DNA from: a virus
Direction: 5' to 3' (one strand)
DNA: 24,642 nucleotides
Virus record (IMG/VR): IMGVR_UViG_3300032356_000011
Span: 1 to 24,642 of that record
The position numbers and the translations under genes were made by a program. Of this stretch, positions 33-12,203 are shown in pieces. Under the pieces are notes generated by a model that had not been told where the DNA came from, made no database searches, and saw only the letters and a list, made by a program, of their open reading frames with translations. Position 1 is the stretch's first letter. Every line of letters begins with the position of its first letter.

Positions 33-1061
33 ATGCAGATCGAAATGTGGCACATCGACCGGATCAAGGAGTACCAGCAGAACCCGAGGCTCATTGGCGA
101 GCAAGCCGTGGACGCCGTCGCCGCCAGCATCAAGCAATTCGGGTTCAAGGTTCCGGTCATCGTTGACGCCGACGGGGTGCTCATCGCCGGGCACACACGC
201 GTCCGAGCCGCGCGCAAACTGGGCCTGAAAGAAGTGCCGGTCATCCACGCCGGCGACCTGACGCCGGAGCAGGTGCGGGCCTTCAGGATTGCGGACAACA
301 AGCTCCACGAACTGGCGACCTGGGACATGGAACTCCTGCCCATCGAGCTGTCGGAGCTGCGCGGCATGGATGTCGACCTGGAACTCCTGGGCTTCTCGTC
401 GGCGGAGCTGGAAAAGATGCTCGGCGCGATGGGCACCGAGGGCCTGACCGACCCCGACGAGGTTCCCGAGCCGCCCGACGAGGCGACAACGAAGCCCGGT
501 GACCTGTGGATTCTCGGAAACCACCGGCTGCTCTGTGGCGACGCGGGCAAGACCGAGGACGTGGACCGTCTGCTGGCCGGCGCTGCGATCCACCTCGTGA
601 ACACCGATCCGCCGTATAACGTCCGCGTCGAACCTCGCTCGAACAACGCCATCGCCGCGGGCAACAGTTCCTTCACGAACTACCATCACCAGCAGATGGA
701 CCTCGCACGGTACACGGAGAAGTCCAAAGCGACGCACCGGAAGATGCGGGCCAAGGACCGGCCGCTGGAGAACGACTTCGTCAGCGACGAGGAGTTCGAC
801 CGGCTGCTGCATGCGTGGTTCGGCAACATGGCCCGAGTGCTAGAGCCCGGCCGCGGGTTCTACATCTGGGGCGGCTATGCGAACTGCGCGAACTACCCGC
901 CCGTGCTCAAGGCCGTGAAGCTCTATTTCTCGCAAGCCATCATCTGGGTCAAGGAGCACCCCGTGTTGACCCGCAAGGACAGGATGGGTAGCCGTGTGGA
1001 AGAGCTTTCGTTCGGCTGCGAGTGGGGCCGACTCAGGCACCTCAATGGCCTGACGCAATAG
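33..1061 (+). pseudogene. ParB-like nuclease domain / DNA adenine methyltransferase, C-terminally truncated
   Basis: This is the remaining part of a two-domain phage or plasmid protein. Residues 1-95 form a ParB/sulfiredoxin-like domain (GHTR at 53-56, then a helix-rich DNK region), and from about residue 155 a beta-type N6-adenine/N4-cytosine methyltransferase begins with catalytic DPPY at 192-195. In this methyltransferase order the SAM-binding FxGxG motif lies after DPPY, and it is absent: the family-like run WVKEHPVLTRKD ends near base 993, the following ~23 residues look unrelated, and the frame stops at 1061. A frame-shifted trace of the expected continuation may survive at 1000-1055. 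The ATG at 33 is preferred over a GTG at 15 because AAAGGAAAGG lies just before it. The methyltransferase is probably inactive, while the ParB domain may still fold. The restriction gene begins 18 bases downstream on the other strand, so truncation by that insertion is the likely cause (inference). Confidence 0.8.
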
Positions 1062-1079
1062 GTGAACGCGACGTTGACC

Positions 1080-1799
1080 TTAAAGCTGCGATTGTTTGAA
1101 GTGTGCCTCCCCATACCGGGAGAAATAGTACAACACCGATCGCTCAGCGATATCCTGCATTACAGAAGCCATCTCCTCAACCGTCCATCTCTCCGGCCGA
1201 AAGTAGAAACTCCCGCGATTGAACTTCCCCGATTCCTCGTTGTATAGATAGGTCCTATTCAGCCTCCCGAACATTGCCATGGTGGAAACCCGATCCAAAA
1301 TGGATGAGTCCGGCTCAAAGTCACAGCCATACCCAAAACAGACGAACGGGAAGATGCACTCCCGCATCAGCGCGGCTCGAAGGCCAATTAGGTTCTTTCC
1401 AAGACGCTCGATCGCATTACCCTTCGCTTGCTTGGGAAGGCCCTCCTGAGCACGAAGAACGTTCGTGCCCTGATTCTTCACTTCCGCAATGAGGATAGGA
1501 TATGTCAGAATGTCACCAGGTGGCCCCTTAATGGCGAGAACGCCGCCATCGGGGCGAATCGAACTGCTGTCAAAGTGGTAATGAAACTCGGTATCGGGGT
1601 ATGTGCGGCGCAGTTCCGCCACAATATCCCTGAGATACCATTGCTTCTCGTGCGTAAGCGAGACGCCCGCCTTAAACCGGCGCCGGATATGGTCGACCAC
1701 CTTGAACAGCGCCTGTATTATGTCGGTTTCCTGCTGCTTTGAGGTCACGTTGATCACCGTGCCCGCCCGCTGCACGCGCAGTTGGTCTTTCCGCGCCAT
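1080..1799 (-). CDS. EcoRI-family type II restriction endonuclease
   Basis: A 239-residue protein, slightly shorter than EcoRI (277 residues). The PD-(D/E)xK active site is clear: PDGG with Asp84, then AEVKNQG with Glu106 and Lys108, matching EcoRI PDGG/AEAKHQG (Asp91, Glu111, Lys113). It is followed by GNAIER at 127-132, the same string that in EcoRI carries the base-contacting Asn141, Ala142 and Arg145. This predicts cleavage at a site with an AATT core, such as GAATTC or CAATTG, but specificity is inference. The gene lies 6 bases after the methyltransferase stop on the same strand, and its ribosome site GGAGG overlaps that stop region, so methylase is made first and the two are probably translationally coupled. 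No controller (C) protein gene is visible. The local G+C is lower than in the phage genes on either side, which fits horizontal acquisition. Confidence 0.9.
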   Translation of the reverse strand: MARKDQLRVQRAGTVINVTSKQQETDIIQALFKVVDHIRRRFKAGVSLTHEKQWYLRDIVAELRRTYPDTEFHYHFDSSSIRPDGGVLAIKGPPGDILTYPILIAEVKNQGTNVLRAQEGLPKQAKGNAIERLGKNLIGLRAALMRECIFPFVCFGYGCDFEPDSSILDRVSTMAMFGRLNRTYLYNEESGKFNRGSFYFRPERWTVEEMASVMQDIAERSVLYYFSRYGEAHFKQSQL

Positions 1800-1805
1800 T
1801 CCCGG

Positions 1806-2990
1806 CTACCTCCGCTCGAGAAGGAACAGATGCTCGGTCACGTGTATTCGGCGATTGTTGAAGTTCCTTGCACCTCGGAAAGCGTTATACTTCTTCTCCA
1901 CCACGTGGACTGACCCGAGAGCGCTAAGCATCCGCTTCATTTCATTGGGCGCAATGAACCCCTCGTCATTGAAGGAAACCAGAATAAAGGGGGCGTCGAC
2001 AGTGACAAGAAGGTCCTCCAATAACTCCCTGCACCTGCGACGCACGTTGTAACCTGATCGCCGCCAGTCGGGCGGTATCCCGGAAACATGGCTCACGTGC
2101 GTTGGCCGCTCATATCGCACCAGCAGGTTTAGCATGAAGTAGTTTGAGCCATAGGGATGCTGGTTGTACGGCGGGTCAAGGTAGGCTACGTCCAGGTTCT
2201 TGAGACGGCGCACAAGCCTATTGGCGTCCTCTTGGAAAACCTCGTAATCGCACTCGAAATTGCTCAAAACCGGAGGCGCCAAAACGATGTCGCCTAGAAT
2301 TCGGGTCAAGGCGTCGGCGCCTGTCCCACCGAACTGCCCAACGCCGGTCCGCCGGTTCTTGTAGAAACCTTTGAACACACCAGCGGTGTTCGCATGTACC
2401 GAAGCTTCGCTTAACAACGGCCCCAGCAAGAGGTCCGTCAAATCCGCTGGGGCTGTCTCGATTAGTCGGCGGTAGTTGTCGAGGCGCCTTGCGTTAGCGG
2501 TGGTGTAGAACACGCGATCCTCTCGCGTAATTCTAGTCTCATCACGAGGTGCGTATAGCTCTTCAATGAAACCTTTGGGAAAGGGCTCGCTCTCCACGCG
2601 CCTGTTGAAGTCGTCCACTATCGCAGATACCGCACGAACGTCTACCGTGCTCTTGTTACGAAGGTAACAGCGACCAGTAACCGCGGCGTAGTCTTCAATG
2701 TCGTTGCTCGCAAGGTATGCAGCATGAGCCTTCAAAAAGCGCGATACGACACCGGAGCCGCTGAAGGCGTCTAGCACACGAAGTCGCGGCCTGCCAAGGC
2801 GGCGCTTTACTCGTTCAAGAGCGAGCCCGATTTCACCAAGGAAGGCTCGTTTGTTCCCGATGTAGGTGAGCAGTTGCTGCGAAAGGTAGTCAGGGTTCTC
2901 GGACATGGGCTCATCCGGCCAAAGCGCCAGCTGGCGGTCCTTGTCCCACGTACCGTCTAGTCTTGCCGCTCGCATGCCACTCTTCTTCAT
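1806..2990 (-). CDS. D12-class DNA N6-adenine methyltransferase of the restriction-modification pair
   Basis: A 394-residue SAM-dependent adenine methyltransferase. Motif X, TYIGNKR, is at about 42-48, SAM motif I, DAFSGSG, at 74-80, and catalytic motif IV, DPPYNQHPYGSNY, at 272-284. The order (SAM motif before DPPY) and the IGNKR and DPPYNQH signatures place it in the D12/alpha class, as in COG3392 proteins. It presumably protects the site cut by the endonuclease gene directly downstream. The frame is open back to 3185, but the first 65 residues of that extension are low-complexity and unlike the family. The ATG at 2990 has AAGG five bases upstream; an ATG at 2906 is an alternative. M.EcoRI itself is not of this class, so the enzyme pairing is unusual. 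The promoter is not obvious: TGTAAT at 3050-3045 resembles a -10 box but has no good -35. Confidence 0.88.
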   Translation of the reverse strand: MKKSGMRAARLDGTWDKDRQLALWPDEPMSENPDYLSQQLLTYIGNKRAFLGEIGLALERVKRRLGRPRLRVLDAFSGSGVVSRFLKAHAAYLASNDIEDYAAVTGRCYLRNKSTVDVRAVSAIVDDFNRRVESEPFPKGFIEELYAPRDETRITREDRVFYTTANARRLDNYRRLIETAPADLTDLLLGPLLSEASVHANTAGVFKGFYKNRRTGVGQFGGTGADALTRILGDIVLAPPVLSNFECDYEVFQEDANRLVRRLKNLDVAYLDPPYNQHPYGSNYFMLNLLVRYERPTHVSHVSGIPPDWRRSGYNVRRRCRELLEDLLVTVDAPFILVSFNDEGFIAPNEMKRMLSALGSVHVVEKKYNAFRGARNFNNRRIHVTEHLFLLERR

Positions 2991-3339
2991 ATAAGCCTTA
3001 TTCCCGGAAACCGATCTACGAAGGCGGGCTACCGTCGAGGTCTGATTACATCCAGGGTTTTTTTGCGCAGGAGTTGTTGTTGCTAGACAGTCCTCGTGTT
3101 GCCCCATGTAGCGGCGGCGGGTATCGATGGCCTCGAACCGACGGCTACGTCGACCAAGGTCCGAAGCAAAGGTTTGGGGGGCCAATGCGTGGACTCTCTG
3201 TAGCGCGACCTCAATTGGCGCCCATCCGTGATTCCAGCGCCCTGGCGGTTCCCGCCGCCCTTATGTGGATTACTATAGCAGAGGCCGTCATGGCCGCCTA
3301 GCAGGCCGCATGAACGGCGCAGGCCGAGTGGGGAGCACG

Positions 3340-3361
3340 CCGCGTTTACCAGGAAACGCGG
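3340..3361. repeat. 8-bp inverted repeat with 6-base loop
   Basis: CCGCGTTT at 3340-3347 pairs perfectly with AAACGCGG at 3354-3361. No T-run follows on either strand, so a rho-independent terminator is unlikely. It lies in the gene-free stretch between the methyltransferase and the truncated amidotransferase. Confidence 0.6.
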
Positions 3362-3367
3362 GCGGGG

Positions 3368-3553
3368 CTACGCCGTGTCGGCAGTGAGGTGGCCACAGGC
3401 TTCGAAGCTCAAGGGGCTATGCCCGGGCAGACGTAAGTGATTGTCGAATAGCCACTTACGAAAAATCTCGTCTCGCCGTTTGCGAATCCGCCGCAGGCGG
3501 TCCAAGTCGGGCCCGCTCCCGTTCTTCGTGATGAATCCGAACACTCCGCACAT
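3368..3553 (-). pseudogene. Class II glutamine amidotransferase, N-terminal remnant
   Basis: The frame starts MCGVFGFITKNGSGPDLDRL. Cys2 directly after the initiator Met, followed by G-V/I-F-G, is the N-terminal nucleophile signature of class II (Ntn) glutamine amidotransferases, which release ammonia from glutamine. Family resemblance stops after about 23 residues (base ~3484). The rest, to residue 61, has no recognisable continuation such as the usual RRGP motif, and a full enzyme should be roughly 200 residues or more. The start is well supported, because GAAAGGAG lies 9 bases upstream. The gene follows the amidoligase stop by 21 bases in the same direction, a pairing known for amidoligase systems in which the amidotransferase supplies ammonia. 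The 3' part was presumably lost when the restriction-modification segment was acquired. Confidence 0.65.
3432..3460. repeat. 8-bp inverted repeat with 13-base loop near a gene break
   Basis: CGTAAGTG at 3432-3439 is the exact reverse complement of CACTTACG at 3453-3460. On the plus strand AAAAA follows; on the minus strand TTTTT precedes the structure, so neither orientation gives a classical terminator. It sits about 25 bases from the end of the recognisable amidotransferase sequence and could be part of a recombination end. Confidence 0.55.
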
Positions 3554-3574
3554 CGTTCTGCGCTCCTTTCGGGG

Positions 3575-4426
3575 TTAGGCTTGGGCGTCGTACTTCTTGG
3601 CCAGCCGGCGGAACTCGGCCTTGATCTCTTCCTGGGGGATGGCGTCCGAGACCCATCCGTATTGCTTGCCGCCGTGAATCCGGGCGTAGCCCGCGCCCCA
3701 GGCCAGGTATCCGATCAGGCGTTCGGCCTCGCTCGGCCCCGGGCCGGCCTTCTTCCACCCGCCGGAAAGCGCGCCGGGGTTCCACTTCGGCATCCGCTTG
3801 GCGCTCAAGGCCCGCTCGACCAATCCGAGGCAGACCTGAATCCAGCCGACCGCCTTGGTCGCGCTGGTGGTTCCCGAGAAGACGCGGAACTCGACCGTGT
3901 CCTTCGAGCCGCGGGCGAGGTTCGTCAGGTTCAAGGCGTGGTAGCGGTCGCGGTCGAGGTTGGGCTTGGCGTCCTTCTCGCTGCCGTACTTCCGCACCCC
4001 GCCGCAGTACCGACCTCGCTCGCGGTTCTTCGTGCCGGTGATCGCGTAGAGGCCCTTCTCGACGTAGGCCACGATCGTGACCAGGCGGGCGAGCGCGATG
4101 CTGGGCCATTCGCGCTTCCACCCGACGTGAACGTGGACCCCGCAGCTCGCGTTGACCCGGTGGCCTTTGGCCTCGAGGATTCGCATCACCTCGGCGACCT
4201 GGGCCAAGCCTTCGGGGCCCCGCAGGACGGGGCTGACGATCTCGCACCGATGGCCCCCGTTGCCGTTGTCGATGGAGCCGTCGGCCTCGGCCTTCCAGCC
4301 GGCGGGCAGGTAGGGCACCTGGATTCCGTGGCGGTATCCGCCGATCCGCAGGCCGTCGTCGCGGACGGCGCTGTCGGGGGCGATCGTCTCGATCTCGATT
4401 CCGAAGGTCAGGTCGTTGGCGTTCAT
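3575..4426 (-). CDS. Amidoligase-family protein (glutamine-synthetase-like/ATP-dependent COOH-NH2 ligase)
   Basis: A 283-residue protein with the signatures of the putative amidoligase family: FGIEIE at 8-13, acidic/His segments around 49-66 (EIVSP), CGVHVHVG at 95-102 and VEFRVFSGT at 178-186. Family members are predicted to form amide bonds by activating a carboxylate with ATP, with Glu and His residues of these motifs binding metal and nucleotide. The natural substrate is unknown; peptide or cell-surface modification has been proposed for the family. The start has AAGGA eight bases upstream. The gene directly precedes a class II glutamine amidotransferase start, consistent with a two-enzyme module, but that partner is broken here. 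The ligase may thus depend on free ammonia or a host partner, or may be non-functional. A long plus-strand frame antisense to it is a composition artefact. Confidence 0.85.
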   Translation of the reverse strand: MNANDLTFGIEIETIAPDSAVRDDGLRIGGYRHGIQVPYLPAGWKAEADGSIDNGNGGHRCEIVSPVLRGPEGLAQVAEVMRILEAKGHRVNASCGVHVHVGWKREWPSIALARLVTIVAYVEKGLYAITGTKNRERGRYCGGVRKYGSEKDAKPNLDRDRYHALNLTNLARGSKDTVEFRVFSGTTSATKAVGWIQVCLGLVERALSAKRMPKWNPGALSGGWKKAGPGPSEAERLIGYLAWGAGYARIHGGKQYGWVSDAIPQEEIKAEFRRLAKKYDAQA

Positions 4427-6051: not shown

Positions 6052-8302
6052 CGTCCGCCGCCTCCGCCCCAGCGAACTGTGCCGCCTGCTCAATTCGGCC
6101 GGCGAGGTGATCAACGAGCGGCAACTGCACCGCCACCGCACGCGCGCCGGATTCCGCATCGGCGACGCCACGCACATCGATCTGTTCCGATACGTGGCGT
6201 GGCTGGTCGAGGTCCGACACACGCCGCGTCCCGAAAACGAAAGCGACCCTTATCAGTCGCTCAAGGAGCGCGCCCGGGCGCGCAATGCAGCCTTATCGCT
6301 GGCCGGGCGCGACATTGGCGAACTGCCGGCCATCGTCAACCCGGAGCGGAAGGCGAGAGCCGAACACGACTTCCGCTTTTTCTGCGAGTCGTACTTTCCG
6401 TTCACGTTCCATTTGCCGTGGTCGCCGGACCACTTGAAGGTGATCGCCAAGATCGAGCAGGCGGTGCTCCGTGGCGGATTGTTTGCGATGGCCATGCCAC
6501 GCGGCAGTGGCAAGACGAGCATCTGTGAGTGTGCCTGCATCTGGGCCGTGCTCTATGGCCACCGCGAGTTCGTCTGCCTGATCGGCTCGGACGAAGGCCA
6601 CGCGATGGGCATGCTCGAATCGATCAAGACCGAACTCGATGGCAACGAACTGCTTTTGGAAGACTTTCCCGAGGTGGTCTATCCGATCCATCGCCTTGAG
6701 GGGATCGCCAACCGCTGCTCGGGTCAGCTCTACAAGGGCCAGCGCACGCACATCGGCTGGACGGCCCGCGAAATCGTGCTGCCCACCATGCCGGGCAGCA
6801 AGGCATCCGGGGCGATCATCAAGGTCGCCGGCATCACAGGCCGCATTCGTGGCATGAAGTACAAGCGGGCCGACGGGCGGTCGGTGCGTCCGTCGCTGGT
6901 GGTGATCGACGACCCGCAAACCGATGAATCGGCGCGGTCCCTGTCGCAGTGCGCCGCGCGTGAGAGCATCTTGGCCGGCGCCGTGCTCGGTCTGGCCGGC
7001 CCGGGCAAGAAGATCGCCGGCATCATGCCATGCACGGTCATCAGGGCCGGCGACATGGCGGACAACATCCTCAATCGCGACAAGCACCCGGAATGGAATG
7101 GCGAGCGGACGAAGATGGTTTATGCGTTCCCCGCGAACGAGAATCTGTGGGCGAAATATGCGGAGGTTCGCGCCGAAGGGCTGCGGGCCGAACGCGGCTT
7201 GGCCGATGCCACCGCGTTCTACCAGGCTCACCGCCAGGCGATGGACGAAGGCGCCGTGGTCGCCTGGCCCGAGCGGCACAACCACGACGAGCTGTCGGCC
7301 GTCCAGCATGCGATGAATCTTCGCCTTCAGGACGAGCGGGCCTTCTGGGCCGAGTATCAGAACGAGCCGCTGCCCGAGGACGACGCCCCGCAGGAAGACT
7401 TATCGGCCGACCAGATCGCCGCCAAGCTGAACCACATGCGACGCGGCGAGGTGCCTATCGGGTGCAACCATCTGACGATGTTCATCGACGTGCATCAGTC
7501 ACTCCTGTTCTATGCGGTCTGCGCCTGGGAGGACGACTTCACCGGCTGCGTGCTGGACTATGGCACGTATCCGGATCAGCGACGACCGTTCTTTACGCTG
7601 CGGGATGCCCAACCGACGCTCGCCCAGGTGGCCAAGGGGGCGGGGTTGGAAGGGGCGATCTACGCCGGCCTGGAGGCACTTACCGACTCGTGCCTGGCGC
7701 GCGAGTGGCCCCGCGAAGACGGGGCGATGATGCGAATCGGACGATGTCTGATCGACGCCAACTGGGGGTTATCCACCGACGTGGTCTATCAGTTCTGTCG
7801 CCAAAGCGCGCACTCGTCGGTGGTCATGCCCAGTCACGGCCGGTTCGTCGGCGCGTCGAGCCTGCCGCTCAATGACTACCGGCGCAAGCCAGGCGACCGA
7901 CTGGGGCACAACTGGCGGATGCCGGCCGTGCAGGGCAAGCGTGCTGTGCGGCACGTGGTATTCGACACGAACTACTGGAAGTCGTTCATCTACGCCCGGC
8001 TGGCTGTACCGATGGGAGATCGTGGCGGTTTGACGCTCTTCGGCAACCGCCCGGACCAGCACCGGCTGTTGGCCGAACACCTCACCTCCGAGTATCGGGT
8101 GCGCACTGAAGGTCGCGGCCGAGCGGTAGACGAATGGAAGCTGCGCCCGAAGCGATGTGATAACCACTGGTTCGACTGCCTGGTCGGCTGTGCCGTAGCG
8201 GCGTCGATGCTGGGGGGTGTCGCCCCCGGCATGGCTACGGCACCGCGGGAGCGACGGCGCGTGAGTTTTGCAGAGATGCAGCGAAAGAGGAGGATGCGAT
8301 GA
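6038..8302 (+). CDS. Terminase large subunit
   Basis: A 754-residue DNA-packaging motor. After an N-terminal helical domain (1-70) resembling the preceding small protein, the ATPase carries Walker A PRGSGKT at 154-160 and a Walker B-like VVIDDP with Asp291-Asp292. The C-terminal RNase H-like nuclease has acidic residues at Asp484 (MTMFIDV-like strand), Asp573 (LIDANWG) and Asp713 (NHWFDCLVG), as in phage terminases. It cuts concatemeric DNA and pumps it into the prohead through the portal. It is longer than many TerL proteins (450-650 residues), partly because of the extra N-terminal domain. It overlaps the gene before it by 14 bases, and its stop overlaps the next ATG, so the three are likely co-translated. 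Confidence 0.93.
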   Translation: MAAIDVRRLRPSELCRLLNSAGEVINERQLHRHRTRAGFRIGDATHIDLFRYVAWLVEVRHTPRPENESDPYQSLKERARARNAALSLAGRDIGELPAIVNPERKARAEHDFRFFCESYFPFTFHLPWSPDHLKVIAKIEQAVLRGGLFAMAMPRGSGKTSICECACIWAVLYGHREFVCLIGSDEGHAMGMLESIKTELDGNELLLEDFPEVVYPIHRLEGIANRCSGQLYKGQRTHIGWTAREIVLPTMPGSKASGAIIKVAGITGRIRGMKYKRADGRSVRPSLVVIDDPQTDESARSLSQCAARESILAGAVLGLAGPGKKIAGIMPCTVIRAGDMADNILNRDKHPEWNGERTKMVYAFPANENLWAKYAEVRAEGLRAERGLADATAFYQAHRQAMDEGAVVAWPERHNHDELSAVQHAMNLRLQDERAFWAEYQNEPLPEDDAPQEDLSADQIAAKLNHMRRGEVPIGCNHLTMFIDVHQSLLFYAVCAWEDDFTGCVLDYGTYPDQRRPFFTLRDAQPTLAQVAKGAGLEGAIYAGLEALTDSCLAREWPREDGAMMRIGRCLIDANWGLSTDVVYQFCRQSAHSSVVMPSHGRFVGASSLPLNDYRRKPGDRLGHNWRMPAVQGKRAVRHVVFDTNYWKSFIYARLAVPMGDRGGLTLFGNRPDQHRLLAEHLTSEYRVRTEGRGRAVDEWKLRPKRCDNHWFDCLVGCAVAASMLGGVAPGMATAPRERRRVSFAEMQRKRRMR

Positions 8303-8490
8303 GCAACGAGAAGCCGAAGAACAATGAGCAGGCCAATACGCCGTCGCAGGCCGGGCTGGTGTGCCCCCGCTGTGGTTGCACCAGATTTCACGTTCTCTCG
8401 ACTCGGCGCGCCCCTGGTGGCCGGATCATTCGGCGTCGCGAGTGCCACCACTGCGGCCGCCGAGTGACGACCGTCGAAAGGGTGGTCTGA
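8299..8490 (+). CDS. Small NrdR-type zinc ribbon protein
   Basis: A 63-residue protein. Residues 22-60 form a single zinc ribbon: CPRCGC, then a beta hairpin (VLSTRRAPGGRIIRRRE), then CHHCGRRVTTVERV. This matches the zinc ribbon of the ribonucleotide reductase repressor NrdR (CPxC, RRRRECxxCGxRFTTxE), but without the ATP-cone domain. It probably binds DNA or RNA, or is a packaging accessory protein. The start overlaps the terminase stop (ATGA). A 117-base non-coding gap follows. Confidence 0.85.
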   Translation: MSNEKPKNNEQANTPSQAGLVCPRCGCTRFHVLSTRRAPGGRIIRRRECHHCGRRVTTVERVV

Positions 8491-8607
8491 AAAAGCCGAC
8501 CGCTACCGGTAGAACTTTTTCCGAAAAAACCTTCGCATCGCCGAACAGATTGCCGCGAAAAAACGAATTAATAGAGTAGGAGGGGAGCACACCACGAACG
8601 AACAGCG
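8491..8607 (+). promoter_or_regulatory. Regulatory-looking gap with palindrome and displaced ribosome site
   Basis: These 117 bases are A+T-richer than the genes around them. They contain the perfect palindrome CTACCGGTAG (8503-8512) followed by a C-T5-CC-G-A6 stretch, which may act as an operator or weak terminator. A strong Shine-Dalgarno-like AGGAGGGG at 8578-8585 lies 22 bases before the next ATG, too far for normal use. Confidence 0.4.
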
Positions 8608-8808
8608 ATGACTGAACCACTCGACGACGCAATCCGCCAGAATGCCCAGGGGCCGGCCAAGGTCACCAGCGACGCCGGTTCGGTGGAGCAACACAAACTC
8701 ACCGACCAAATCGCAGCCGATCGGTACATCGAAAGCAAGAAGGCGGCCCGCGTGAAAAAGCGCGGGCTGCGATTCAATAAGCTCATCCCCCCCGGAACCG
8801 CAGACTAA
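8608..8808 (+). CDS. Small conserved phage protein in the gpW position
   Basis: A 66-residue protein between terminase/zinc ribbon and portal. In lambda this slot (A-W-B) is held by the 68-residue head-tail joining protein gpW. The C-terminal part (KLTDQIAADRYIESKKAARVKKRGLRF) is a charged helix followed by a basic tail ending IPPGTAD. Direct sequence similarity to gpW is not evident, so the functional suggestion rests on position and length. I recall similar short proteins beside portals in planctomycete prophages. The ATG at 8608 lacks a close ribosome site. Confidence 0.6.
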   Translation: MTEPLDDAIRQNAQGPAKVTSDAGSVEQHKLTDQIAADRYIESKKAARVKKRGLRFNKLIPPGTAD

Positions 8809-8820
8809 CCACCCACCCTT

Positions 8821-8872
8821 GCGACGCCCGCCGCGTCCCCCCGCCTTCCTCCTCCTCGCGCGGCGGCGTCGC
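8821..8872 (+). repeat. Long GC hairpin just upstream of the portal gene
   Basis: GCGACGCCCGCCGCG (8821-8835) pairs with CGCGGCGGCGTCGC (8859-8872): 8 bp, one bulged C, then 6 bp, closing a pyrimidine-rich loop. It lies entirely between the preceding stop (8808) and the portal ATG (8897). No T-run follows (ATTTCCTCTT), so it is more likely an attenuator, mRNA processing or stabilising element than a full terminator. Confidence 0.7.
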
Positions 8873-8896
8873 ATTTCCTCTTACAATCAAGCGCAC

Positions 8897-10336
8897 ATGC
8901 CGCGACTTCTCAACCGCATCGCAACGTGGCTTTTTGGTGGATCGCGCAACGTAGCACGGCGCGCGCGGATCGTGCGCGCTCGTTACGACGCGGCGACGAC
9001 GACGCCCGATAATCGCCGCCATTGGGCGGCCGCCGATGGGCTGTCGGCCCGGGCGGCCAACAGCCCCGAAGTGCGGCGAGTGCTGCGCAATCGAGCGCGG
9101 TACGAAGTCGCGAACAACAGTTACGCCCGTGGGATCGTCACCACATTGGCCCACGACTGCATCGGCACCGGGCCGCGATTGCAAGTGCAGCACGATCTGG
9201 CGAGGGAGCTCGAGCGGCAATTCGCCGGGTGGGCGAAAGCGGTGGGCTTGGCTGAAAAACTCCGCGTCATGCGCATGGCCGTCGCGCAAGATGGTGAGGC
9301 GTTTGCGCTGCTGGTCAGCAACCCAATGGTGTCGCACAACGTCAAACTCGACATCCAACTTATTGAAGCGGATCAGGTCGCGACGCCTGGGCTTGTGCCG
9401 CCGCAACAGCCGAACGCGACTGACGGTATCGAGTTCGATCGGTGGGGCAATCCGACGGCGTATTTGGTGCTCGACGCGCACCCGGGCGACCCTGACTTCG
9501 CGGCAGTAGCCACGGCGAAGCGTGTGCCCGCTGCATCGATGATCCACCTGTTTGTGCCGGAGAGAGCAGGACAACTGCGCGGCGTCCCTGAGATGACGGC
9601 CGCGCTGCCGCTGTTCGCTCAACTGCGCCGCTACACATTGGCGGTGATCGCCGCCGCGGAGACGGCGGCAGACTTTTCCGCGGTCCTGTTCACCGACGCG
9701 CCGGCCGATGGCGATGTGAGCGAGGGCGAGCCGTTCGAGTCGCTTGAAATCGAGAAAAGAACGATGGTTACGTTGCCGGCCGGTTACAAACTCGAACAAC
9801 TTCGGGCCGAGCAGCCAAGCACGACCTACGCCGAGTTCAAGCGAGAAATCCTCAACGAGATCGCTCGCTGCTTGAACATGCCATACAACATCGCGGCCTG
9901 CAACTCGAGCGGCTACAACTACGCCTCTGGCCGGCTCGACCATCAGACCTACTACAAGTCCATTCGCGTGTGGCGTAATCGCCTCGAAACGACGGTGCTC
10001 GACCGCATATTCGCAACCTGGCTCGACGAGGCAGCGCTCACGGTGCTGCCGGGCCCCGTCGGCGAAGACGTGCCGCACCAATGGTTCTGGGACGGGTTTG
10101 AGCACGTCGACCCGGCAAAAGAAGCGAATGCGCAGGCCACGCGACTGGCGAACAACACCACGACACTCGCCTACGAGTACGCCCGACAAGGCCGCGACTG
10201 GGAAGAGGAACTGCGGCAGCGTGCCCGCGAGCTTGCGTTGATGCGCGAACTTGGGATAGACACTGCTGGTGCGATCACACCAATAACCGACACGACCGAC
10301 GAGGACGAATATGCCACACAAACTGATGCGAATTGA
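8897..10336 (+). CDS. Portal protein (lambda family)
   Basis: A 479-residue protein of the lambda-type portal family. Characteristic segments are the N-terminal RARYDAATTTPDNRRHW, RNRARYEVANNSYARGI, LIEADQVATP, the FERAGQ-like VPERAGQLRGVPEM and, near the C terminus, YNYASGRLDHQTY. Portals form the dodecameric ring at one capsid vertex through which the terminase pumps DNA and to which the tail attaches. The ATG at 8897 is chosen because MPRLLNRIATWLFG is a typical start and the in-frame TTG at 8819 would place the GC hairpin inside the coding region. Neither start has a strong ribosome site. The last 26 bases overlap the capsid gene, typical of tightly coupled head genes. Confidence 0.93.
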   Translation: MPRLLNRIATWLFGGSRNVARRARIVRARYDAATTTPDNRRHWAAADGLSARAANSPEVRRVLRNRARYEVANNSYARGIVTTLAHDCIGTGPRLQVQHDLARELERQFAGWAKAVGLAEKLRVMRMAVAQDGEAFALLVSNPMVSHNVKLDIQLIEADQVATPGLVPPQQPNATDGIEFDRWGNPTAYLVLDAHPGDPDFAAVATAKRVPAASMIHLFVPERAGQLRGVPEMTAALPLFAQLRRYTLAVIAAAETAADFSAVLFTDAPADGDVSEGEPFESLEIEKRTMVTLPAGYKLEQLRAEQPSTTYAEFKREILNEIARCLNMPYNIAACNSSGYNYASGRLDHQTYYKSIRVWRNRLETTVLDRIFATWLDEAALTVLPGPVGEDVPHQWFWDGFEHVDPAKEANAQATRLANNTTTLAYEYARQGRDWEEELRQRARELALMRELGIDTAGAITPITDTTDEDEYATQTDAN

Positions 10337-12203
10337 GGCTGGTCACGTAAAGTGGATCGAGGCGGCGGCAAACGAGCCGCAGTCCGTGCCGCGATTCACG
10401 ATGGTCGCATATACTGGGGCTCCAATCGAAGTCTATGGTTGGGACGACCCCGTGGTGTTTGATCTGCAAGGGTTGCAGTGGACGAAGGTTCCGATCAAGT
10501 ACGCGCACGCGGACTGGGCCGGCGTCGGGCACGCCGAGCGCGTGTGGGTCGAAGGATCGACCTTGTACGCGGAGGGCCTGATTTCGCGGGCCACACAGGC
10601 GGCCCGGGAAGTCGTGGAGTCGGCGAAGCGAGGCTTCCCCTGGGCGGCTTCGGTTGGTGTGGTGCCACTCGAGGTAGTGCGATTGCACCAAGGCCAGCAG
10701 GCCAACGTGAATGGTAAGGAAATCACCGGCCCGTGCTACATCGTGCAGCAGGGCGAATTGATCGAGATTTCTTTCGTTGAAATCGGTGCGGACGCGAACA
10801 CAAAGGCAACCGTCGCGGCCGCGTCGGCTGTAGCGAATACGACGGTTGCCCACACAACCCCCATGACTGGAGGCAAGAGTATGACCGTGGATGAACTGCG
10901 CGAACTGTTCGGGGGGCGGTACCCCGACCTCGAGGCCAAAGCGCTCGAAGAGGGCTGGGACGAAACGAAATGCCGTGACCAGATCGAAGCCCGCGCGCGA
11001 GAAGAACGCAAGCAGCAACTGCTGGCTGCGATGCGTGATTCGCGTCCGCAAGCCCCGGCTGTGCACACGTCGCAGCCGCCGGTGAATGCAGCACGAGTGC
11101 TGGAGGCCGCCGCCATGATCGCGGCCCGGGCTGATACGATCGACTACACCCCGCAGGAGGTCGAGGCCGCCCAACGCCGTTGGCGTCGAGGTCTCGGCCT
11201 TGGTGAGTTGATCGTCGAGGCGGCACGAGCGAATGGCTACTCAGGCCCCGGCTACCGCGACACGCGCACCGTGATGCGATATGCGTTCCAGCCGCATATC
11301 GAGGCGTCCGGGTTCTCGAACGTCGACATCGGTGGCATCCTGTCCAACGTCGCCAACAAGTTCCTGCTCGACGGCTTCTTCTCGGTCGAACGGACGTGGC
11401 GGAACATCTGCTCCGTCAAAAACGTCGGCGATTTTAAGACCATCACCAGCTACCGCCTGACCGGCAAGGATCAGTACGAACTGGTCCCGCCGGGTGGCGA
11501 GTTGCAACACGGCACGTTGGGCGAAGAGACCTACACGAACAAGGCCGACACCTACGGCTTGATGCTCACGATCGACCGCAAGGACGTCATCAACGATGAT
11601 CTTGGTGCGATCACCTCGGTGCCTCGCAAGCTGGGGGCTGGTGCCGCGCGAAAACTCAACAGCGTGTTCTGGACGACCTTCCTGGCGAATTCGTCGTTCT
11701 TCACGACCGCGAGAGGCAACTACTTCGAGGGCGCTGCCTCTGCGCTGGGCATCGACTCGCTGACGACTGCCGAGACGATGTTCGCGCTGATCAAAGATGC
11801 CGACGGCCATCCGACCGGCGTTGATCCCGCGATTCTGTTGGTGCCCACGGCGCTGTCGGCCATCGGATCGCAGCTCTACAAGTCGATGGAGTTGCGCGAC
11901 ACGACCTCGAGCACGAAGTACCCGGTGGCCAATCCGCACCAGGGCAAGTTCCGCGTGGAAGTCAGCCGGTACCTCGGGTCCGCATCGCTGCCTGGCGCGT
12001 CGAACACGGCGTGGTATCTCTTGGCCGATCCGAACGACCTGCCGGTGATCGAGGTCGCGTTCCTCAACGGCCAGGAAAGCCCGACGATCGAAACGGCCGA
12101 CGCGGACTTCTCGGTCCTGGGCATCCAGATGCGCGGCTACCATGACTTCGGCGTGGCGCTGCAAGATCATCGCGGCGGCGTGAAGAGCAAGGGCTCGACG
12201 TGA
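10311..12203 (+). CDS. Prohead protease-major capsid protein fusion
   Basis: A 630-residue polypeptide that unites two normally separate genes. Residues about 1-165 resemble the HK97-type prohead serine protease: KYAHAD with His66, PWAASVG with Ser114, and LIEISFVEIGA with Glu152, in the family order. Residues 185-290 are charged and helix-rich, typical of a scaffold/delta domain. From about 300 onward the sequence is a HK97-fold capsid protein (GGILSNVANKFLLDGF, VKNVGDFKTI, TYTNKADTYGLMLTIDRKDVINDDL, and the C-terminal PTIETADADFSVLGIQMRGYHDFG). An internal in-frame ATG at 10881 has GGAGG seven bases upstream, so a protease-free scaffold-capsid form may be made separately. It overlaps the portal end and is followed by the capsid cement gene. 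Confidence 0.92.
   Translation: MPHKLMRIEAGHVKWIEAAANEPQSVPRFTMVAYTGAPIEVYGWDDPVVFDLQGLQWTKVPIKYAHADWAGVGHAERVWVEGSTLYAEGLISRATQAAREVVESAKRGFPWAASVGVVPLEVVRLHQGQQANVNGKEITGPCYIVQQGELIEISFVEIGADANTKATVAAASAVANTTVAHTTPMTGGKSMTVDELRELFGGRYPDLEAKALEEGWDETKCRDQIEARAREERKQQLLAAMRDSRPQAPAVHTSQPPVNAARVLEAAAMIAARADTIDYTPQEVEAAQRRWRRGLGLGELIVEAARANGYSGPGYRDTRTVMRYAFQPHIEASGFSNVDIGGILSNVANKFLLDGFFSVERTWRNICSVKNVGDFKTITSYRLTGKDQYELVPPGGELQHGTLGEETYTNKADTYGLMLTIDRKDVINDDLGAITSVPRKLGAGAARKLNSVFWTTFLANSSFFTTARGNYFEGAASALGIDSLTTAETMFALIKDADGHPTGVDPAILLVPTALSAIGSQLYKSMELRDTTSSTKYPVANPHQGKFRVEVSRYLGSASLPGASNTAWYLLADPNDLPVIEVAFLNGQESPTIETADADFSVLGIQMRGYHDFGVALQDHRGGVKSKGST
10871..10883 (+). promoter_or_regulatory. 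Internal ribosome site and start codon within the capsid fusion gene
   Basis: GGAGG (10869-10873) is followed after seven bases by ATG at 10881, in the frame of the protease-capsid fusion (codon 191). Initiation here would give a 440-residue scaffold-capsid protein lacking the protease, comparable in principle to nested head genes in lambda (C and Nu3). Use of the start is inferred from the sequence. Confidence 0.5.

Follow-up and report, generated by a model that had tools for sequence, protein, structure and literature searches.

A restriction-modification pair beside a recurrent, codon-exact junction in the ParB-methyltransferase gene of planctomycete-type phages

Phage defence hotspots and phage-borne cassettes are already known. 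In the phage locus system described in 2022 (PMC9122126), varied defence systems including restriction-modification (R-M) occupy one place between conserved phage genes, as they do at the locus reported here. This locus differs in that one edge is a codon-exact gene truncation with a shared coding tail of ~50 bp, and in that the tail is also found in other genes and in chromosomes, with hosts that are apparently planctomycetes. Members of the Planctomycetes are known to carry integrons (PMC2426708, PMC8352920), and integrons and attC clusters occur in phage genomes, where some of the phage-borne attC cassettes encode DNA methyltransferases (PMC9892861). In contrast to the latter, the copy of the tail in the sequence analysed here has no attC-like site and that sequence no integrase, and attC-like sites adjoin only some copies of the tail, mainly chromosomal ones. 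With EcoRI-family type II R-M systems the pair shares the nuclease family by profile, the catalytic PD...ExK residues and the GNAIER stretch, whereas its partner methyltransferase is of the D12 class. New here is a fixed, codon-exact edge common to dozens of loci and, judged by sequence comparison, spreading by recombination between phages.

A foreign block between two truncated phage genes

The whole stretch of DNA analysed (the window) is a viral record of 24,642 bases with portal, head, tape-measure and terminase genes; the host of the locus would be an uncultured planctomycete-type bacterium. An R-M pair lies between two truncated phage genes (Table 1), as the first-pass annotation had proposed and as profiles and comparison with relatives now confirm. 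The lower G+C content, which had been suggested from hand counts, was right in direction: it is 56.4% over 1028-3485, compared to 64.2% in the left and 65.3% in the right flank, and no other stretch of equal length in the window is lower (minimum 59.2%). At third codon positions the block has 66% G+C, the flanks 82-94%. By both measures, the block from ~980 to 3485 is foreign DNA.

Table 1. Features at the left end of the window and the basis of their assignment
Feature	Position	Strand	Basis
Phage ParB-DNA methyltransferase, retained 5' part, codons 1 to ~315	36..979	+	Pfam, PHROG, relatives
Conserved junction sequence, in-frame C-terminal tail (DRMGSRVEELSFGCEW...)	978..1027	+	Profile; shared loci
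Rest of fused reading frame to stop codon	1028..1061	+	ORF
EcoRI-family restriction endonuclease, 239 aa	1080..1799	-	Pfam PF02963; PADLOC REase_II; EcoRI structure alignment
D12-class adenine DNA methyltransferase	1806..2990 (~2990)	-	Pfam PF02086; PADLOC MTase_II; L199 relative
Spacer, methyltransferase gene to right junction	2991..3485		No match in relatives
Class II glutamine amidotransferase, first 24 codons only (72 nt)	3486..3557	-	Matches L004, L006, L019
Amidoligase, intact right flank	3575..4426	-	Pfam PF12224 (3.6e-24)

The left neighbour (ORF 36-1061) matches Pfam ParB_N and N6_N4_Mtase, the latter only over positions 1-100 of the 221 in the profile, and PHROG 498 over positions 34-314 of 633. 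Its family likeness ends at codon ~315-319 (nt ~980-993), whereas full-length relatives have 437-450 amino acids, with ~120 more codons that include TEKP and FGGSGST, motifs which we take to be required by a functional enzyme of that methyltransferase class. Judged from these alignments, the C-terminal portion of the methyltransferase domain is missing from the retained part. The family also carries insertions at other places. Intein-like insertions between NHEW and C, a site six codons past the junction site, were found in L002, L019, L026, L030, L038, L044, L051, L067, L073 and L074, with a second one in L051 before TEKP. The gene of L118 contains a group II intron (RF00029; 2564-2637, minus strand) and a reverse transcriptase frame near motif IV.

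On the right, the similarity of three relatives (L004, L006 and L019) to the window starts exactly at 3486. The compact allele with both genes full-length, the search for which had been proposed as a check, was found in two of these, the syntenic L004 and L006: a full-length ParB-methyltransferase gene converges on a full-length amidotransferase gene (229 and 224 aa, respectively), followed by the amidoligase gene. The intervening DNA amounts to 1.6 kb in L004 and 2.2 kb in L006, compared to 2.5 kb in the window. No second case of the right break at amidotransferase codon 24 was found among the relatives compared, and this gene may have been cut by the R-M pair or by the agent that delivered it.

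The nuclease scores 40.8 bits (cut-off 22; 1.8e-10) against the EcoRI profile of Pfam and 3.3e-16 against REase_II, and aligns to EcoRI structures at 2.2e-10. The catalytic PD...ExK residues are present (in RPDGG, as PDGG, and in AEVKNQG), and GNAIER is also kept in the EcoRI alignment. By profile and alignment the protein belongs to the EcoRI family; cleavage is predicted. The methyltransferase scores 3.9e-15 with Pfam and 2.1e-107 with MTase_II. Its reading frame is open to 3185, with a likely start near 2976-2990, from where approximately the relative in L199 aligns. Both genes are on the minus strand, 6 bp apart. The viral contig L199 carries a homologous pair in the same order (~50% identity in each gene), so the two genes are considered to form a real, portable system; a nuclease gene next to a methyltransferase gene, a pairing kept in L199, is what is expected of a Type II R-M system. 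The junction sequence described below was absent from the 10.7 kb of L199. Avoidance of sites by the predicted system was not seen in the window, where both GAATTC and CAATTG occur and are not rare, and no specificity can therefore be read from avoidance.

Recurrence and spread of the left junction

Among the 80 viral relatives found at first, five likewise break off at ...HPVLTRKD and continue with a similar tail, two of these five (L017 and L022) being identical over the 4 kb compared. A pattern scan followed by a synonymous-codon scan gave nine distinct viral loci besides the window with the short form at the same codon, and a genome scan gave eight further ParB-methyltransferase loci broken there. 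No fewer than 17 sequences besides the window thus share this breakpoint, and the cargo beside it varies, often consisting of defence or toxin genes. When the window is left out of the profile, its copy is still detected with E=1.2e-6. The consensus common to all short loci, with variations, is GGGTAGCCGTGTGGA(A/G)CGGGT...GGGTTCGCGTGGGAGCGGGGAAAGG, and counting all sites, the window sequence is shared with 33 copies. GTGTGGA served as an anchor when these copies were gathered, only the degenerate searches being free of anchor bias, which weakens the conservation of CGTGTGGA alone as proof of a site acting at the DNA level. As coding sequence the junction is constrained: pN/pS is 0.46 in frame, whereas the two alternative frames give 1.6 and 1.9.

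This recurrence bears on two alternative explanations. In the model of the first-pass annotation, the R-M pair itself took the place of the 3' ends of the two neighbouring genes in a single event. Much of the arrangement it invoked is present, namely truncation of both neighbours at the edges of foreign cargo, whole alleles in L004 and L006, and a right break seen only in the window. Its left side is refuted by the 17 loci in which the same cut and ~50-bp tail stand beside other cargo, that is, the same short end without these restriction genes; as a single event covering both sides, the model is very unlikely. According to the second alternative, different phages were wrongly joined during assembly at one or both of the window junctions. 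The window is a single metagenome viral contig and its right junction was seen once, but the left junction recurs in many independent contigs, and the junction sequence is also present inside the terminase gene of a genome assembled as one contig of 7.74 Mb (G301), all of which makes an artefact most improbable.

In a tree of the N-terminal halves the short forms are scattered, with eight changes, of which at least six are forced by supported branches. The residues DKQ precede the junction in 11 of 18 short genes versus none of 139 full-length genes (Fisher 1e-12, a value which treats related sequences as independent). Over most of the ParB-methyltransferase gene, L084, L086 and L088 group with the full-length L053; in the last ~180 nt the identity to L053 is lost, and the three are equally close or closer to L089, a short form from another lineage. 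The mosaic of upstream identity and the linked DKQ haplotype indicate that homologous recombination within the methyltransferase gene carries the truncated 3' end, together with its tail, across phage lineages. The window carries the common WVKE haplotype, and its own junction is without the DKQ mosaic.

Cargo at the junction and copies outside the methyltransferase gene

R-M genes, unrelated between loci, lie behind the junction in the window, L017/L022, L058 and L088, and a GmrSD-type restriction gene in L124. An apparent 3' half of the methyltransferase in L017 was considered as part of a split gene and rejected; it is a separate R-M methyltransferase. Rhs-like proteins, named by eye from YNRARYLDPTTGRW-type repeats, are encoded in L043, L084, L089 and L118, and some junction loci carry cargo of no recognised kind. 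For 26 of 32 copies, the cargo gene that comes first runs antisense to the tail. Different predicted defence systems are thus found at one locus in related phages, the hallmark of a phage defence hotspot.

The right edges differ, being located inside the terminase gene (L058, L084), in another open frame (L086) or, in the window, at codon 24 of the amidotransferase. L058 and L084 are probably defective or rearranged, since the 5' part of the terminase gene is missing there at the right edge. In L058, a 29-residue amidoligase fragment (10416-10502) at the right edge of the cargo, beside the mid-cut terminase gene, points to a two-step rearrangement. The distance to the terminase start did not differ between short and full alleles (p=0.92), since flanking genes are missing as well from some of the short forms. 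The distance to the HARE gene is 3.7 kb in the window, the only short form comparable, and exceeds that of all 35 full alleles. L110 and L114 are near-identical after the junction copy, with different flanks (the methyltransferase gene and a chromosomal site, respectively).

Copies of the junction sequence also lie in the terminase gene after ...VRPSLVVLD (L138, L140 and L144; L140 is the copy within G301), and about a dozen other sites carry it, nearly all in planctomycete genomes. The terminase copy of L144 is followed by another methyltransferase gene and an ORF of unknown type, and a GajA/AriA-like ATPase gene comes after the chromosomal copy of L175. Of the 29 hits in the genome scan, 14 belong to Planctomycetota, and the extended consensus is missing from most of the remainder; a sample of 392 Planctomycetota genomes gave a match in only four. 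Several of these contigs show further peculiarities. On the G301 chromosome (L177, reverse complement, 6883-9315), terminase residues 153-292 are followed by the junction with an attC-like site and by terminase residues 199-752, an overlapping partial duplication. In L123 the tail is fused in frame to a 154-residue open frame resembling a genuine protein end (ARKANEILGSVFTGLD), which is possibly a third gene type carrying the tail. L144, a planctomycete-type phage contig, has a match to a Type II hammerhead ribozyme at 70-133 (minus strand).

The terminase and chromosomal copies are not explained by recombination in the methyltransferase gene alone, and count against a purely recombinational account. 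They favour an alternative in which the junction sequence either marks one end of a mobile element that targets particular sites or serves for attachment in the manner of an integron, settling afresh at the same target and bringing defence cassettes. It would account for copies at such unrelated sites as methyltransferase, terminase and chromosomes. The chromosomal flanks of L113, L121, L174, L169 and L123, which resemble the methyltransferase target above chance, are in line with it, although this resemblance is compatible both with targeted insertion and with hitchhiking out of the phage gene. An attC-like imperfect palindrome directly adjoins 12 of 34 junction copies, with 0.3 expected at the control-based 99% level of the purpose-written scoring script (these are candidate sites only), most of them at a nearly equal offset from the junction sequence. 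In one case, a two-ORF unit and an attC-like site lie between the copy and an integron integrase gene.

Against this alternative stands, first, the missing attC-like site at the window copy, which scores 5.0, within the control range (p=0.57), and at most viral copies by the same scoring; the arrangement of an integron gene cassette, with attC directly after the gene, is not seen at the window copy. An integrase was found in 6 of 14 genomes with the junction sequence versus 2 of 10 without it, which is not clearly different. With no attC-like site at the window copy and no clear enrichment of the integrase, the integron route is a lead rather than a finding. Furthermore, each short-form locus has a single junction copy without a second end or an inverted partner on either strand, by which a transposon with two defined ends was rejected. 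A simple integrative element leaving both target halves was rejected likewise, there being no orphan methyltransferase 3' halves, and no mirror junction of such a half to foreign DNA, among the matches listed. The linked upstream haplotype points to recombination instead. Taken together, a mobile element or attachment site appears possible but rather unlikely. A group II intron, suggested by the start GTGTG, was dismissed as well: apart from the intron of L118, which lies upstream of the junction, neither the window nor any short-form locus that was scanned gave an Rfam intron match, and the window has no 3' exon.

A probable variable phage locus with a recombining edge

On balance, it is somewhat probable that the R-M pair serves as defence cargo, at a variable locus of planctomycete-type phages with a recurrent, recombining left junction and cargo units replaced over time. 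The left edge of the locus is the truncated ParB-methyltransferase allele ending in the conserved junction sequence of ~50 bp, an allele present beside different cargo in many phages and prophages, and the upstream mosaic shows that this end passes from one phage lineage to another via homologous recombination in the conserved gene. Cargo units, mostly convergent to the phage gene, would attach next to the junction sequence and be exchanged for others in time, at copies with an attC-like site sometimes in the form of integron-like cassettes, otherwise by another route. Such exchange at the junction edge is suggested by comparing loci, none of them a case between near-identical phages. In the window, the incoming unit would have been joined on the right by the break in the amidotransferase gene that is seen only here.

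A more far-reaching and unlikely idea is that the ~50-bp sequence represents a mobile docking element, so far undescribed, in Planctomycetota and their phages. Inserted in frame after an aspartate codon in conserved phage genes, it would supply a selected C-terminal tail with a stop codon and a receiving edge for defence or toxin units, with an integron integrase or another recombinase acting in trans.

The R-M pair is presumably active, and would help the lysogen to exclude other phages or make itself hard to lose. A defined 50-bp sequence makes the entry and exit of defence genes in phage genomes a testable question, and its edge is linked in places to integron attC-like sites. The junction sequence also provides a handle by which planctomycetes and their phages can be searched for new R-M and toxin systems.
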